A program made the translations under genes and the position numbers. A stretch of DNA of 64,000 nt, taken from the NCBI GenBank assembly GCA_019638775.1, contig JAHBTD010000002.1:248001-312000 (forward strand), in the 5' to 3' direction. This stretch comes from Fimbriimonadaceae bacterium (lineage in GTDB: Bacteria; Armatimonadota; Fimbriimonadia; Fimbriimonadales; Fimbriimonadaceae). How positions within the stretch are numbered: position 1 is the stretch's first letter; each line of letters opens with the position of its first letter. The notes below the pieces were generated by a model. The model had not been told where the DNA came from, did not search any database, and was given only the letters and a program-made list of their open reading frames with translations. Shown here piece by piece: positions 15,376 to 21,357 of the stretch.

Positions 15376-16005
15376 TTAGATTGGTTTTGACTCTGAAGTC
15401 CACGTACTCTCCCAACTGCGTCTCCAACGAAACCATAGGTCCAGGCAAAGGAACACAGCTCCACCGAAAGGAGCTAAACACATCCACAAAGCCAACGGTA
15501 CATTACCAATACTCATCCCAAGTATCAGACTAACGATGATCACCGAAAGGCCGAGGATCAGCATTCCATAGGACAGAGCGAAGGCTTTTGAAACACCAAA
15601 CAACTTGGATCTGCCGTTCGGTTTTCGGACTGCGCGGCGATGCGACCACTCAGTTTCCCAATTGAGACCTTCCAAATGAGGCTCAAGCCTTGTGCGAATG
15701 TAGTTGCCCAAGTGGTCGATGGATTGAGTTAAGCCTGATGTCATCAAGAGTGCAATGATGATAATCAGGTAGGCAAAAAACAACGCTGAGCAAGAGATAG
15801 TGAGTTGAGCTTGGAGGTGTTGAGCACTCTCGGCAGGCTTTGATTGGACAATGGCTATTGCGCCCGTTGTGCCAACTGCGCCAAGTGTAAAGCCCAAGAT
15901 TGCGAGGCGACTTTGTTGATGCCCTTGAAGTTCTGAGCGAAGAACTTTGAATTCTTCAAGCATCTCCGCACGTGTATCCTTGTCCGGTTTTTGTTGTATC
16001 CCCAC
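15376..16005 (-). CDS. Unrecognised four-helix membrane protein
   Basis: 209 residues, not recognised. A polar N-terminus (KDTRAEMLEEFKVLRSELQ) is followed by four hydrophobic segments, at about 36-53, 67-89, 143-164 and 169-188. The pairs are separated by a basic cytoplasmic-looking loop (WSHRRAVRKPNGRSKLFG). Base composition is visibly lower in GC than the flanking genes, as is that of the next gene. The frame begins with a GTG at 16005, 6 nt after an extended GTACAAT box and without a Shine-Dalgarno, so the mRNA may be leaderless. An internal ATG at 15963 is the alternative start. Confidence 0.65.
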   Translation of the reverse strand: MGIQQKPDKDTRAEMLEEFKVLRSELQGHQQSRLAILGFTLGAVGTTGAIAIVQSKPAESAQHLQAQLTISCSALFFAYLIIIIALLMTSGLTQSIDHLGNYIRTRLEPHLEGLNWETEWSHRRAVRKPNGRSKLFGVSKAFALSYGMLILGLSVIIVSLILGMSIGNVPLALWMCLAPFGGAVFLCLDLWFRWRRSWESTWTSESKPI

Positions 16006-16061: not shown

Positions 16062-16928
16062 TTACTTCCCGCTCGGTTTAACTGTCTCGGGATGCCTCCT
16101 CACAAAGTCTAACTCCTCTGCTAGTCTTTCCTGAACGAACGTGTATGGCTCAGCAATTTCGTGAAGAAACCCTTCAGTTTTATCGAGCAGGTGGCTCTTC
16201 GCTCCAATTGATCGGACACAGTTCATTGCCGCATCTCTCGAATTCACCCACTCCTTGTGTCGTGAGATCATCATGAGGTAGTCGCTGTCTGACAACAGGC
16301 TTAAGCAGCCAGCAGCGATGTCATTGCGATCAGGCTTGTGCCCCTTTTCGGTGGATAGAGTAAGCAAATTCTTGGCATCTAACTCAGCCAGAATCCTTGT
16401 CGCTCTGACGGCAGACCTGTATGTATCGGTCCTCGCAATGCGCCACACTTTCTCTCCCGAGTATTCAAGTTTGTATTCTCGAATGAGTTCGCAGATGACT
16501 GTCCGAACAAACTCATCAGGATCATCTAGGAAGTTATCGACGTCGGTTTTTGTCAGGAGAGATAGATGACCACAAGTCTCAAGGGCGATCGCTCTCGTGA
16601 CGGGATCGGGATCGGATAGAAATCCTCGAACAGTGTCTGAGCTGTTGTCCCTAAAGTAAGTCCTTGTTTCATCGCGTTTGAATCCGGTAATCCGCGCCAA
16701 GGCATCAAGACGAATGTTCTTGCTCCGCAAGTTCAGGCATTGCATCGTAAATGTTGCGTCGGCTTGCGTGTCTTTGATCTCACTTAGCTTTTGTGCAAGC
16801 CGGTCATCGGAGCTAAACCGAACTTCGAGGGAGGGCCATGCCACGACTATTCCAAGAGCCAGAAAGGCGAGGGTAGCAAAGATTCCGATTGCGAGCTTTG
16901 TGCCGGTGCGCATGATTGGGACAATCAT
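16062..16928 (-). CDS. Membrane-anchored HEAT-like repeat protein
   Basis: 288 residues from the ATG at 16928, which has GGAG seven bases upstream. One N-terminal membrane segment (LAIGIFATLAFLALGIVVAW) is followed by an extracytoplasmic region of helical repeats: DPDPVTRAIALETCGHLS and DDPDEFVRTVICELIREY are typical HEAT units in which a DPD-x-VR turn separates two helices. No catalytic motif. It probably binds other proteins at the membrane. It has the same low-GC look as the preceding membrane gene and may have been acquired with it. An upstream ATG at 16979 would add an unlikely N-terminus. Confidence 0.65.
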   Translation of the reverse strand: MIVPIMRTGTKLAIGIFATLAFLALGIVVAWPSLEVRFSSDDRLAQKLSEIKDTQADATFTMQCLNLRSKNIRLDALARITGFKRDETRTYFRDNSSDTVRGFLSDPDPVTRAIALETCGHLSLLTKTDVDNFLDDPDEFVRTVICELIREYKLEYSGEKVWRIARTDTYRSAVRATRILAELDAKNLLTLSTEKGHKPDRNDIAAGCLSLLSDSDYLMMISRHKEWVNSRDAAMNCVRSIGAKSHLLDKTEGFLHEIAEPYTFVQERLAEELDFVRRHPETVKPSGK

Positions 16929-17020
16929 GCATACGCTCCGAAGCTTGATAAGGATGCGAGACAGAAAGAAACCCTCCATAGCCACAGCTATGGAAGGTTT
17001 GATTTACGCTTTTTCAAAAG

Positions 17021-18388
17021 TTAGAACTGGGCGTCCGAACTCATTAGCGTCAGGTACGGCAGGGTTGGCGTTTGTGGGGAACCGCCACCGCCCCGTGCCG
17101 ACGTTCCACCGCCCTTCATCCGGTAGAACACCTGCCAACCGAACTCCGAGATCGGAATGCGGTTCGAACGGAAATCGCCAAGGACGTGGGTGATCGAGTC
17201 GGCATAGATGCCGATCTCCTGACCGTTGCGAACGTAAGAGAAGACATTCTCTCCGGGCATGGTCGCTTGACCCTGCGCAACCGATCCGAAGGTCGGAACT
17301 TCCATTCCGAAGTATCGCCCACCGTTGATTGGACGATTGGCTTCAAAAAACGCGAAAATACGTGCGCCCTTGAGGAGGAAGAATCGATAGATATCGGACT
17401 TTGCCACCATCGACGAAGTGTCGGTGCTCAGTTCGGTATCGACACCGGCAAGAAAGTCTTTGCCCTCGATGTTCGTGCCTGCACCTGCAAAGTAGATGAA
17501 GATCGTTGCGCCGTCTGGGATGCGGCTTGCCAACGCCTCTGCGCTGGTCTTAATCTGTGCAGCAGTGGCGTTTAGAACGACGTCAACGTTTGCCTCTGCA
17601 TAACCGCCGTTGGTGGTGAGCGCAAGTCGGATCGCCTGGGCATTTGCGGATGCAAACGGTACGGAATTGCCAGCCAGTTTGGACTCGGAGTTGCCGATCA
17701 CGAGCGCATACTTGTTTGCCAGTGGGGCGACCTTCATGCCGAGGCCGGGATTCGAGACCGTTCCGCCACCCGTGTTTGCACCACCGGTGTTTCCTGTTCC
17801 TCCTGTGTTTCCAGCCCCGCCGGTATTTGCCGGTTGTTGGGGAGGAGCTTGGCCTTTCATCCTGCCGATCTCGCCCATCTCTTCAGGGGCGACGACTTCG
17901 GTATCGACCTTCCAGCTCATTTTGCTTTGGACTTCGCCAAACTTGGTGTCCAATTGCTCCTGCTTTTGGCGCTCGCCGGTAGAGCCGTAGATCACGTTGA
18001 GGAAGTAGAAGGTTTCGTAGCTGTGCTGACCCTTTGTGATCAGAATTTCAAACTCTGCAGCAACCTTTTGATAAAGGTCTGTTCTCTCGGGACCGGGGTT
18101 CATTCCAGCAGCCTGACGATAGCCCGAATAAGCGCCTAAGAAGTTCGGCGAGTAGGATGCACCCTCACGCCATTGACGGCGCTCGGTTGCAGGGCCTGGC
18201 AAAAAGGTCGGACCGGATACATCGTCGGGCCTGTAAGCGGCGGCTTGCTTGAACGCCGTGCGCGCAGATGCCCAATTTCCGGCTCTTGCCTCACTCAACC
18301 CTTTTTCATAGGCATTGCTCCACGACTGCGACATCGCAGAAGCGGCAACCCCAAACAAAACTGCAGCAAAAATCAAACGACGCATCAT
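17021..18388 (-). CDS. Secreted caspase-fold (C14-like) protein lacking the catalytic His and Cys
   Basis: 455 residues with a signal peptide (LIFAAVLFGVAASAMSQS). Residues ~25-150 form a TPR-like helical region (KGLSEARAGNWASARTAFKQ). A Gly/Asn/Thr-rich linker (NTGGAGNTGGTGNTGG) leads into a p20-like caspase domain beginning at KYALVIGNSES. The strand that normally ends in GHG reads FIYFAGAG, with Ala303 in place of the catalytic histidine. The DACR-type strand reads FFEANRP, with Asn351 in place of the catalytic cysteine. It is therefore probably a pseudopeptidase. It is the last gene of a tight operon (3-nt gap) behind a PorV-like barrel and an Ig-like protein, suggesting an envelope or surface role. 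Confidence 0.82.
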   Translation of the reverse strand: MMRRLIFAAVLFGVAASAMSQSWSNAYEKGLSEARAGNWASARTAFKQAAAYRPDDVSGPTFLPGPATERRQWREGASYSPNFLGAYSGYRQAAGMNPGPERTDLYQKVAAEFEILITKGQHSYETFYFLNVIYGSTGERQKQEQLDTKFGEVQSKMSWKVDTEVVAPEEMGEIGRMKGQAPPQQPANTGGAGNTGGTGNTGGANTGGGTVSNPGLGMKVAPLANKYALVIGNSESKLAGNSVPFASANAQAIRLALTTNGGYAEANVDVVLNATAAQIKTSAEALASRIPDGATIFIYFAGAGTNIEGKDFLAGVDTELSTDTSSMVAKSDIYRFFLLKGARIFAFFEANRPINGGRYFGMEVPTFGSVAQGQATMPGENVFSYVRNGQEIGIYADSITHVLGDFRSNRIPISEFGWQVFYRMKGGGTSARGGGGSPQTPTLPYLTLMSSDAQF

Positions 18389-18391
18389 TCG

Positions 18392-19510
18392 TTATTTCCC
18401 CACCCGGTACTGAAAATAGAGCGAAGTATCTGTGCCGCCACCGGTTGGCTTGGCAAAGTTCAGCTCGATTGACCAAGGTTGGTTGTTCGGACGGTATCCA
18501 AAGCCGTAGGTGAAAGTATTGCGGTCGTCAAAACCGTTCCCTCCAGCTGGCACCCCTCGGAACCCGACTCGGATGGGGATCGTTCCCCCGCCGATGCCGT
18601 AGTTGTATTCCAACCCAGCCCCGATCGCGGTGAAGTCGCTTCGCATCAGTCGGTCAGTCCCTTTGCCTTCAAAGAAGTAGTCCACTTGTGCCCCAAGAAT
18701 CATGTAGTCGCTTCTTCGGCCCACCGAATCTTGTCGGATGGCCACACCGGCGGAGATCAGTCCGGGGATTTGGCTATACAGCGAGTTTGAATCTCCCCCT
18801 GTCAGCTTGATCGGCGTACGGGCGCTGATGCCGAACGTAAGGTTCGACTGATTCGAAGGAGTGAACATCAACCCCGCCACAGCGCCGATGCCCGTGCCGG
18901 TGCCCTCAGATTCTGCCTCTTGCGGTGGAATCTGGTTATCGTTGAAGGTGATGAGTTGGTGATTGCGAATAGCGTTCGATGCGCCAACCACGCCAACGCC
19001 CCAAGCCGTCTGTCCGTCGGCAGAGGCTCGGCCATAGCTTAGCGTGATGAAGCTTGTTCGTACACGGGTGAAATCGAAGTACGTCGCAATTCCGCCGCCG
19101 AGGTTGTTACCGCGCTCGGTGTCGTTGAACCATCCCCCAAGCTGGTAGGAGATTCCAAAAGCTCCGCCGCCTTGCGGTGTGGCATAGCCCAAGTGGGAAA
19201 GACTGTAATCGCCCTTGTCCGCCGTAGTGTCCAGACGCTTGTCGGCAAGCGAGCCGGTGACCACGGTTTTGCTTGTTGGCAGTGTCCTCGACGCCAAACC
19301 AAACGTAGGCTGTCGGATATATCCAAGCCCAGCCGGGTTATGAAGAATGGACATCGTGTCCGAGCCGGTGGCGTTCATCGAGCTGCCCGCGCCCATCGCA
19401 CGGCCTCCCGCATCGAACGCGTTCAACATATCGGGCACTTGTGCCAATGCGGCGGCCGGAACCAGAGTTCCGGCCATCAAGCCAAACGAGAGCTTCCTTG
19501 CGACTGTCAT
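18392..19510 (-). CDS. PorV/FadL-like outer-membrane beta-barrel protein
   Basis: 372 residues from the ATG at 19510, which follows GTAGGAGACCT (strong Shine-Dalgarno). Signal peptide LSFGLMAGTLVPAAALAQ. The mature start (AFDAGGRAMGAGSS followed by SDTMSILHNPAGL) is the hallmark of the PorV/PorQ and OmpP1/FadL-type barrels, in which alternating hydrophobic strands such as GGAFGISYQLGGWF and SNLTFGISARTPIKL follow. In Bacteroidota PorV carries type IX secretion clients; here only the family resemblance is seen. The neighbours in the operon are an Ig-like secreted protein (7 nt upstream) and a caspase-fold protein (3 nt downstream). Confidence 0.82.
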   Translation of the reverse strand: MTVARKLSFGLMAGTLVPAAALAQVPDMLNAFDAGGRAMGAGSSMNATGSDTMSILHNPAGLGYIRQPTFGLASRTLPTSKTVVTGSLADKRLDTTADKGDYSLSHLGYATPQGGGAFGISYQLGGWFNDTERGNNLGGGIATYFDFTRVRTSFITLSYGRASADGQTAWGVGVVGASNAIRNHQLITFNDNQIPPQEAESEGTGTGIGAVAGLMFTPSNQSNLTFGISARTPIKLTGGDSNSLYSQIPGLISAGVAIRQDSVGRRSDYMILGAQVDYFFEGKGTDRLMRSDFTAIGAGLEYNYGIGGGTIPIRVGFRGVPAGGNGFDDRNTFTYGFGYRPNNQPWSIELNFAKPTGGGTDTSLYFQYRVGK

Positions 19511-19517
19511 AGGTCTC

Positions 19518-20507
19518 CTACTTATACGTAACGACGACTTCCTGGGTCGTACTGGCATTGCCAGCACGATCCACGACGTTCACGACTATTTTGAACTGTT
19601 TTCCGTATCCTCTGTTGAATCTGAGCTTTCCGGACCAGCGGAAGTTGTTTCCACCGGTGTTTTTGAACGACGACCGTGGCACACGGGCCAAGAACGTACC
19701 GTCCAGTTTTCGGACGACAACGTCAACGCCAGTGACGTCAATCGAGTTTGCTGAGCCATCCTGCATGTCGATTGCAACCGACACGCTTGAGTTCATCGAA
19801 AGCTTGATATTGGAGAGGGGCTGCACGATACCGACGACGGGAGCGACTCGGTCAAGGGTGACCGTGATCGTCTTCGTCTCTTCGTTGTTTGCCTCGTCTC
19901 TCAGTCGGATAGACACCGTTTGGCTTCCGTCGAACTGGATGCCTGTCGTATCCCAAAGCACGGTAAAGCTGTCGTTTACGAGCGACGTGCCGGTGTTGTT
20001 GGGAATGTCTGACCCATTGATCTGTACGCGATAGTCCTTAAAATTGGGCTCCAATACCTTGACGGTGATCGGTACGATTCCTTTGACAAAGCTGTTGTTA
20101 AGCGGGTTGAACTGCAAGAATTTGGGCTTGTTCACGTCGACCGTTACGTTGATCGAGACGTTGCCAAAAACTCCGTTATCGCTCTTTCTCTTGGCGACCA
20201 CGTCGATCGTGTAGGCTCCTTCGGGAGCGCCTTGGTTAAAGTTGATCGGAAGCTGGTCGTTGATCTTTCCGTCCGCATCGGGCGTGAAATCGTTTTCTGA
20301 GGTGAACTGAACTCCGCCAGGGCCCGTGATCGTGGCCTTAATATTCACCTGGGTCGAGGCCCCAGTTACGTTAAACTTGAGCTGGTTGCTGAGACCAAGA
20401 AAGTCTCCGTTGTTCGGTGAGGTTACCGTCAATGTCTGGGCATACCCGGCCAATGCCGCGATAATAAGGCCGCAGACCGCTGCTGTTCGTAGAACGATCC
20501 TTTTCAT
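19518..20507 (-). CDS. Secreted protein of Ig-like domains
   Basis: 329 residues from the ATG at 20507, preceded by GAGGTG eight bases upstream. Signal peptide IVLRTAAVCGLIIAALAGYAQ (one residue trimmed in use) is followed by three beta-sandwich repeats: LTVTSPNNGDFLG..., FLQFNPLNNSFVKGIVPITVKV and VGIVQPLSNIKLSMNSSVS. Each starts with a proline/asparagine turn and carries a D-A/E-AGN-type end (LRDEANNEETKTITVT; VVDRAGNASTTQEVVV) typical of bacterial Ig-like (Big) modules. There is no enzyme motif, sorting signal or lipobox. It is the first gene of the operon with the PorV-like barrel and caspase-fold protein and lies 40 nt downstream of the HAD gene. A surface or periplasmic adhesive or structural role is inferred. 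Confidence 0.8.
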   Translation of the reverse strand: MKRIVLRTAAVCGLIIAALAGYAQTLTVTSPNNGDFLGLSNQLKFNVTGASTQVNIKATITGPGGVQFTSENDFTPDADGKINDQLPINFNQGAPEGAYTIDVVAKRKSDNGVFGNVSINVTVDVNKPKFLQFNPLNNSFVKGIVPITVKVLEPNFKDYRVQINGSDIPNNTGTSLVNDSFTVLWDTTGIQFDGSQTVSIRLRDEANNEETKTITVTLDRVAPVVGIVQPLSNIKLSMNSSVSVAIDMQDGSANSIDVTGVDVVVRKLDGTFLARVPRSSFKNTGGNNFRWSGKLRFNRGYGKQFKIVVNVVDRAGNASTTQEVVVTYK

Positions 20508-20547: not shown

Positions 20548-21357
20548 CTATTTTCGCTCATTTAGCAAAAAGGCGTCAATGAAGCAGGCTACCCCACCTT
20601 CGACGCTTGATGGAACCACCAAGTTCGCTGCAGCCTGAACTTCGAGGGGTGCAGTCTGCATTGCGGCGCTGAATCCCGCGTACTGGAGCATCTCCAAGTC
20701 GTTGTAATAATCGCCAATAGCAGCAATTTCCTCAGGTTTTAAGCCGAAGTATTCGACAACTTGAGACAGCCCAAGCCCTTTGTTGATTCCTCCCGGCAAT
20801 ATCTCCAGGTAATCCGCTTCGGATCGAACGATGCTTACTTCCTGGCCTTTGAGCAGAGTTTGAATGCTTCCCACATGTCCTTCAATGACATTAGCGTCGT
20901 CGGCAAAAAGCATCTTCGTGACTTCGATTCCCGCTGTTGATTGTTGCTCCATCATCTTGGGGACGACATGGCGTACCCGTTCTGTATAGATATCGCTCCA
21001 CCGATTTCGATGGGGGAAGAAGACGTCGTGCCGTGCATAGATGCTGAGGTGAAGGTTATTGCCCAGGGCGTATGCCATTAGCTGGCTTGCCGTATTTTGC
21101 GAAAGGCTGGTGTGGGCGATTTCGTGAGTCGGGCTGGATAGGACATGAGCGCCGTTTGAGCAGACCATCGGCCCTTCGATCTCAAGCTCCTTTGCAAAGG
21201 CTTCAATGCTGGCGACGTTGCGTCCACTTGCAAGGGCGATGACGATGCCCGCATCCCTTGCTCGACGTACGGCGTCGATGTGTACCTGGGTGAGTTTCCT
21301 TTCGGGGTCAAGCAGGGTGCCGTCGAGGTCGAGCGCGAGGAGTCTGATTTGGGGCAT
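20548..21357 (-). CDS. Cof-type HAD-IIB phosphatase
   Basis: 269 residues. HAD motif I LALDLDGTLLD, motif II ALASGRN, motif III Lys in GGINKGLGL and motif IV GDYYNDLEML make a complete Cof/YidA-like active site. These enzymes dephosphorylate small phosphorylated metabolites such as sugar phosphates, FMN and pyridoxal phosphate; the substrate is not predictable. The gene precedes the Ig-like/PorV-like operon by 40 nt and could be co-transcribed with it. The ATG at 21357 has no clear Shine-Dalgarno. Confidence 0.92.
   Translation of the reverse strand: MPQIRLLALDLDGTLLDPERKLTQVHIDAVRRARDAGIVIALASGRNVASIEAFAKELEIEGPMVCSNGAHVLSSPTHEIAHTSLSQNTASQLMAYALGNNLHLSIYARHDVFFPHRNRWSDIYTERVRHVVPKMMEQQSTAGIEVTKMLFADDANVIEGHVGSIQTLLKGQEVSIVRSEADYLEILPGGINKGLGLSQVVEYFGLKPEEIAAIGDYYNDLEMLQYAGFSAAMQTAPLEVQAAANLVVPSSVEGGVACFIDAFLLNERK

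Follow-up and report, generated by a model that had tools for sequence, protein, structure and literature searches.

A conserved three-gene block in Fimbriimonadia links a predicted FadL-superfamily barrel to a caspase-fold protein without its catalytic dyad

The window analysed here is a stretch of 64,000 nucleotides (G000:C2:248001-312000) from the 4.3-Mb draft genome of a Fimbriimonadaceae bacterium of the class Fimbriimonadia (Armatimonadota); its named relatives belong to the Fimbriimonadaceae or lie elsewhere in the Fimbriimonadales, and most of these genomes are metagenome-assembled. Three genes lie on the minus strand between positions 20507 and 17021, separated by gaps of 7 nt and then 3 nt, as an earlier note on this DNA had correctly described. 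They encode an immunoglobulin (Ig)-like protein, a FadL-superfamily barrel and a C14-type caspase-fold protein in which both catalytic residues are replaced, i.e. a pseudo-caspase. The gene order, the folds of confident models, the missing dyad, the purifying selection on all three genes and their joint presence or absence across the class form the observed base of a reading to which we give about an even chance, namely that of a module at the outer membrane in which the pseudo-caspase binds its partners without acting as an enzyme. The genes and the two former catalytic sites are the following:

19518..20507, minus strand: gene 1, predicted exported Ig-like protein of 329 amino acids (aa) with a signal-peptide-like N-terminus MKRIVLRTAAVCGLIIAALAGYAQ
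18392..19510, minus strand: gene 2, FadL/PorV-superfamily outer-membrane barrel of 372 aa, 14 predicted strands, NPA hatch motif
17021..18388, minus strand: gene 3, predicted exported pseudo-caspase of 455 aa, TPR-like domain, linker and caspase fold
17480..17482, minus strand: codon of Ala303 at the catalytic His site (GAG for GHG), counted from the coding-sequence start at 18388
17336..17338, minus strand: codon of Asn351 at the catalytic Cys site (EANR for DACR), counted from the same start

The gene 3 protein consists of a TPR-like domain (residues 22-178), a linker rich in Gly and Asn (about 179-220) and a caspase fold of the C14 type (222-455). The assignment to C14, already proposed in the earlier note, was borne out both by the profile search and by the predicted structure. 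Peptidase_C14 of Pfam matches the window protein with 23.8 bits against a cut-off of 21.4, and it matches 33 of the 44 homologues (best 1e-11). In the window protein Pfam recognises the p20-like part alone (226-327), while the structural alignment to MALT1 runs through residue 455 and thus spans the whole caspase domain. The AlphaFold2 model, built with the 44 homologues, has a mean predicted local distance difference test (pLDDT) score of 88, with disorder in the linker at 189-216. Its top fold match is the MALT1 paracaspase (Z 22.8 over 210 residues, 2.9 A), with plant metacaspase 4 (Z 20.4) and human caspases (Z about 19-20) among the further matches. Only C14 folds, i.e. paracaspase, metacaspase and caspase, are found among the fold matches listed for the caspase domain, and no C25/gingipain or PorU fold is among those listed for the model, which does not prove that such similarity is absent. 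A search of solved structures by sequence gave no match. The caspase domain can be superposed in full on MALT1 and the plant metacaspases (Z 19-23, about 200 residues, 15-18% identity), but the His/Cys dyad is missing and Gln or Glu replaces the Asp of DxC.

In a profile alignment to caspase paralogues of about 1000 aa from the same class, the [SA]GHG His aligns with Ala303 and the DACR Cys with Asn351, which confirms the two substitutions that had been read from the window protein alone. The loss is not a peculiarity of this genome. Two overlapping homologue sets, of 44 and 41 proteins, were checked; His is found at position 303 in 0/44 and 0/40 of them, and Cys at position 351 in 0/44 and 0/41, so that the protein can indeed be called conserved and dead. 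Among the 44 homologues position 303 is occupied by 10 different residues (Ala 16, Val 10, Pro 4, Ser 4, Thr 3, others) and position 351 by 7 (Asn 20, Ser 8, Asp 5, His 4, others), and residue 349, the Asp of DxC in active paralogues, is Gln in 35 and Glu in 9. At the same time G302, D311 and R352 are invariant, and no new invariant His or Cys was found among the homologues. The loss is thus common to the whole family, and the old sites drift inside a frame that is held. The caspase fold would descend from an active C14 peptidase, with both catalytic residues and the Asp of DxC gone. Two caspase paralogues in the host genome retain GHG together with DSC or DTC, and the ~1000-aa family (L131, L132, L133, L134, L135), with [SA]GHG and DACR intact, is probably active.

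Purifying selection acts strongly on each of the three genes. The ratio of nonsynonymous to synonymous substitution rates (dN/dS) is 0.014-0.064 for each of them (five close genome pairs, unsaturated dS), which means that they encode functional proteins. Since the cutting residues are gone in every relative examined, the pseudo-caspase is probably retained as a binding part and not as an enzyme. About half of its strictly invariant columns fall in the TPR-like N-terminal domain, which has an invariant motif of W73, G76, Y79, S80, N82 and F83, and we regard this domain as the likeliest docking surface.

The three genes are also tied together by their distribution. In a survey of 113 Fimbriimonadia genomes, based on family-level hits, the pseudo-caspase was found in 81, the barrel in 77 and the Ig-like protein in 75; all three are present in 74 genomes and none in 31. 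The co-occurrence of barrel and caspase has a Fisher probability of 2e-21, a value not corrected for relatedness. The order Ig-barrel-caspase is conserved in 41 of 48 loci, the remainder being mostly contig-edge cases, so the arrangement seen in the window holds in relatives too, and it persists where the block lies away from its usual neighbours or in the other orientation. Empty sites are seen as well. In G076, G078 and G027 the phosphatase gene directly adjoins coaX, the ends of these two flanking genes overlapping or nearly so, and in G075 they are about 100 bp apart, with no remnant of the block in any of the four; G062, a single contig of 5,231,762 bp, is without all three genes. Genomes lacking the block are scattered across several genera and family f2. 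Because the outlying families f3-f5 carry it, joint loss seems likelier than repeated gain, a judgement made without a species tree. Among the incomplete cases, contig ends interrupt the block in G021 and G035, and in G080, which is 77% complete, the caspase gene is missing. Outside the class we found isolated caspase-domain or TPR matches alone, and among the genomes searched the full family is limited to Fimbriimonadia. A search of phages gave no homologue. The relatives of the N-terminal domain in other Armatimonadota classes (G245, G149) were set aside as generic TPR proteins with no caspase, barrel or Ig neighbours.

The gene 2 product is modelled with confidence as a 14-stranded barrel of the FadL superfamily (pLDDT 86.5, predicted template modelling score 0.83). 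Its best fold match is FadL itself (Z 33.5 over 323 residues, ~16% identity), followed by the toluene channels TodX and TbuX (about 29) and by BamG of three Bacteroidota (about 28-29), and PorV of type IX secretion system (T9SS) translocons comes later with a Z of about 26 and a larger root-mean-square deviation (5-6 A). In the NPA hatch motif N58 and P59 are invariant and A60 nearly so. The PorV_fam/PorQ profile NF033709 matches 38 of 39 barrel homologues (best 4e-13), as opposed to 7 of 39 for Toluene_X, but the window barrel itself reaches only 24 bits, below the NCBIfam cut-off of 90, and a PorV_fam search of the host genome at E 0.001 gave no match. The PorV/FadL-like label of the earlier note was thus sound at the level of the superfamily: FadL is the best fold and the window barrel stays below the PorV_fam cut-off, so that the protein is, according to the model, a FadL-superfamily barrel rather than a demonstrated PorV, the similarity to PorV being weak though family-wide. 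The mature barrel is predicted by eye to start at Q24, and as D27 aligns with residue 1 of FadL it would have ~3 extra residues. As for gene 1, the earlier description as an Ig-like secreted protein is supported by the family, where 36 of 39 homologues match Big_13, and by the signal-peptide-like start, but the window protein itself remains below the Pfam cut-offs. The Ig-like proteins of the outlying families f3 and f4 (L062:13230-15680, L148:2316-4469) are about twice as long and contain several Ig-like repeats.

Operon structure is suggested by the immediate surroundings of the block. On the minus strand the order is phosphatase, Ig-like gene, barrel gene, caspase-fold gene and hairpin:

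20548..21357, minus strand: HAD (Cof-type) phosphatase, upstream of gene 1 across a gap of 40 nt
16969..17000, minus strand: terminator-like hairpin of 14 pairs with a T-rich tail, 20 nt past the stop of gene 3

The hairpin (minimum free energy -21.2 kcal/mol, z -5.4) would mark the operon end, and the tight spacing together with a terminator-like element right after gene 3 supports a single operon, i.e. the three genes would be co-transcribed as an envelope module. The phosphatase gene is a frequent upstream neighbour, yet it does not belong to the unit that genomes retain or lose together. All three proteins begin with what looks, on direct reading of the sequence, like a signal peptide. The FadL/PorV-type barrel would sit in the outer membrane, and the Ig-like protein and the pseudo-caspase with its TPR-like part would pass the inner membrane by export and work together with the barrel, most likely docked on it, presumably through the TPR-like N-terminus of the pseudo-caspase. 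The caspase fold would now be a rigid, non-catalytic part that binds proteins or peptides. The soluble parts are likelier to be on the periplasmic side, because no surface-export route was found for them. The earlier note had suggested a binding or scaffolding role at the cell surface. A non-catalytic role in the envelope is the likeliest, given the family-wide dead dyad, the purifying selection and the genetic tie to the barrel and Ig genes, but the placement at the surface is not favoured. Of the three outcomes that the earlier note had named as refuting its reading, none was observed: the homologues lack His and Cys at the two sites, the predicted structure is caspase-like, and relatives have the same gene order. 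We also speculate, as a rather improbable extension, that the dead caspase is docked to the barrel by its TPR-like domain and that exported polypeptides are gripped in its old substrate groove and thereby brought into position at the outer membrane. If true, this would be a machine of the Fimbriimonadia outer membrane not described before, in which a T9SS-like attachment logic has arisen independently with a C14 pseudo-protease.

A few observations speak against the module. A strict three-part machine is contradicted mainly by the genomes in which the caspase occurs without the barrel and Ig genes (G019, G030 and G090, plus the fragmentary G040 and G069). In those that were read the dyad is still absent, and these three to five genomes indicate that the pseudo-caspase has some independent value and is not solely a barrel partner. 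In addition, the TPR resemblance of its N-terminal domain is below the Pfam cut-off, and the covariation of distance matrices (mirror-tree) beyond that of housekeeping genes is weak and not decisive. Two lone pseudo-caspases without barrel and Ig genes and without the dyad are seen at L138:4702-6048 and L069:3176-4624; in L069 the HAD phosphatase directly precedes the caspase gene on its upstream side, which looks like an excision of the two genes in between.

It is useful to weigh the module against other explanations of the same block. An unlikely one is that gene 2 encodes a FadL-type channel of the usual kind, whose substrate would be a hydrophobic compound, with the Ig-like protein and the pseudo-caspase as periplasmic accessory or delivery proteins for the substrate. 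The nearest solved folds are indeed the FadL, TodX and TbuX channels (Z 28-33), the NPA hatch is retained and the mature N-terminus has about the length of that of FadL; however, the similarity to PorV/PorQ is broader than that to Toluene_X, and it is hard to explain why a transporter should need a pseudo-caspase. The present barrel shares its 14 strands, N-terminal hatch and NPA motif with the FadL channels but differs from them in having a pseudo-protease in its operon. We consider it very improbable that the caspase-fold protein has an unrecognised catalysis through other residues. The strong purifying selection over the whole protein and the invariant D311 and R352 would fit such an activity, but the former catalytic positions vary freely and no His or Cys has become invariant in their stead.

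The earlier note had also drawn, as speculation, an analogy to T9SS. There PorV is joined to PorU in a complex at the cell surface and acts as a substrate shuttle, a genuine precedent for a FadL-like barrel that holds a caspase-like protein on the outside (PMC5562754). By this analogy the barrel would carry exported Ig-containing proteins as PorV does, with the pseudo-caspase in the place of PorU. In both systems a barrel homologous to FadL is accompanied by a caspase-like partner and by domains of the Ig fold, which in T9SS belong to the cargo (PMC5562754), and both the PorV_fam matches of the barrel homologues and the Ig-like gene beside the barrel agree with the analogy. On the other hand, PorU is an active C25-type sortase whose work requires the catalytic Cys, which is absent in all homologues of the dead, C14-type gene 3 protein, and FadL (Z 33) and BamG (29) are ahead of PorV (26) in the fold comparison of a barrel that scores 24 bits against 90. 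The analogy is not supported in the form in which it was proposed, and we regard a T9SS-like attachment or display system as improbable. Searches of the host genome for GldM and the C25 peptidase found none, and for SprA only a partial match (36.5 bits over 100 residues, cut-off 200), but the control genomes were silent for all three, so the absence of T9SS is not proven. A search for T9SS sorting tails in the host genome gave two weak matches, one of them on a large repeat protein, and no T9SS cargo set. Decidedly improbable, in our view, is a BamG-like arrangement, in which the barrel would be bound to BamA and its soluble partners would aid outer-membrane protein assembly. BamG is a FadL-family barrel that works with other proteins and not as a transporter (PMC12611786, PMC12578637), BamG of three Bacteroidota β-barrel assembly (BAM) complexes matches our model with Z 28-29, and it binds its partner BamH via extracellular loops (PMC12578637). 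But the N-terminal extension of BamG, about 10-12 residues relative to FadL (PMC12578637), is absent here (~3 residues), the operon has no obvious lipoproteins, the partners of our barrel look unrelated to BamH-K, and an essential role in assembly is hard to reconcile with the many genomes that lack the whole block.

Pseudo-caspases as such are already known. Among bacterial orthocaspases 8.6% are of this kind, nine tenths (90%) of which come from Alphaproteobacteria and Cyanobacteria, and the text of that survey does not mention Armatimonadota (PMC6426788). In Synechocystis, deletion of a pseudo-orthocaspase raised the tolerance to oxidative stress (PMC7889975). The present family resembles such proteins, e.g. 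SyOC (PMC6426788, PMC7889975), in the C14-type fold, the p20 homology without the dyad, the replacement of both catalytic residues and the retention as a clade. Pseudo-orthocaspases are also marked by the lack of a p10 domain; here Pfam picks up only the p20-like part, but the model aligns with all of the MALT1 caspase domain. However, pseudo-orthocaspases mostly have Tyr/Ser for His/Cys, whereas the replacements are varied here (Ala, Val, Pro, Ser, Thr; Asn, Ser, Asp, His), and the present proteins are apparently exported, have an N-terminal TPR-like domain and are operon-linked to a barrel. The literature searched contains no description of the operon or of an exported, barrel-linked, class-wide pseudo-caspase. 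Its defined genetic partners give a handle on the role of a dead caspase. The block further suggests that the pairing of a caspase-fold protein with a FadL-superfamily barrel may not be confined to Bacteroidota. Little work has been done on the envelope of the phylum concerned, and Fimbriimonadia are little-studied bacteria of soil and water.

Two other candidate interpretations were rejected. A role in anti-phage defence was based on a PADLOC match to the generic 'caspase' model alone (24.8 bits), and an exported dead protein is at odds with the known caspase defence systems. In an apparent barrel-caspase fusion in G006, an 858-aa frame, the two parts meet at a stretch of N in the assembled sequence.

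A large protein encoded in the host genome (G000:C3:168372-168668; L140:1-2331, minus strand), which has no Pfam match, resembles exported outer-membrane proteins; it contains repeated 'DGVxQxxGxDYxIxYExGTI' motifs and gives the SprA match (TIGR04189, 36.5 bits, positions 588-687). In the window, a Rfam scan of 11-27 kb gave no match. Directly downstream of the block, with the hairpin between the operon and its gene, a HEAT-repeat-like protein of 307 aa is encoded at 16062-16985 (minus strand), and a 209-aa protein with apparent transmembrane stretches, for which the Pfam search gave no match, at 15376-16005 (minus strand). Past these two small genes lie, on the plus strand, homologues of grpE, glmM and coaX, named by family.

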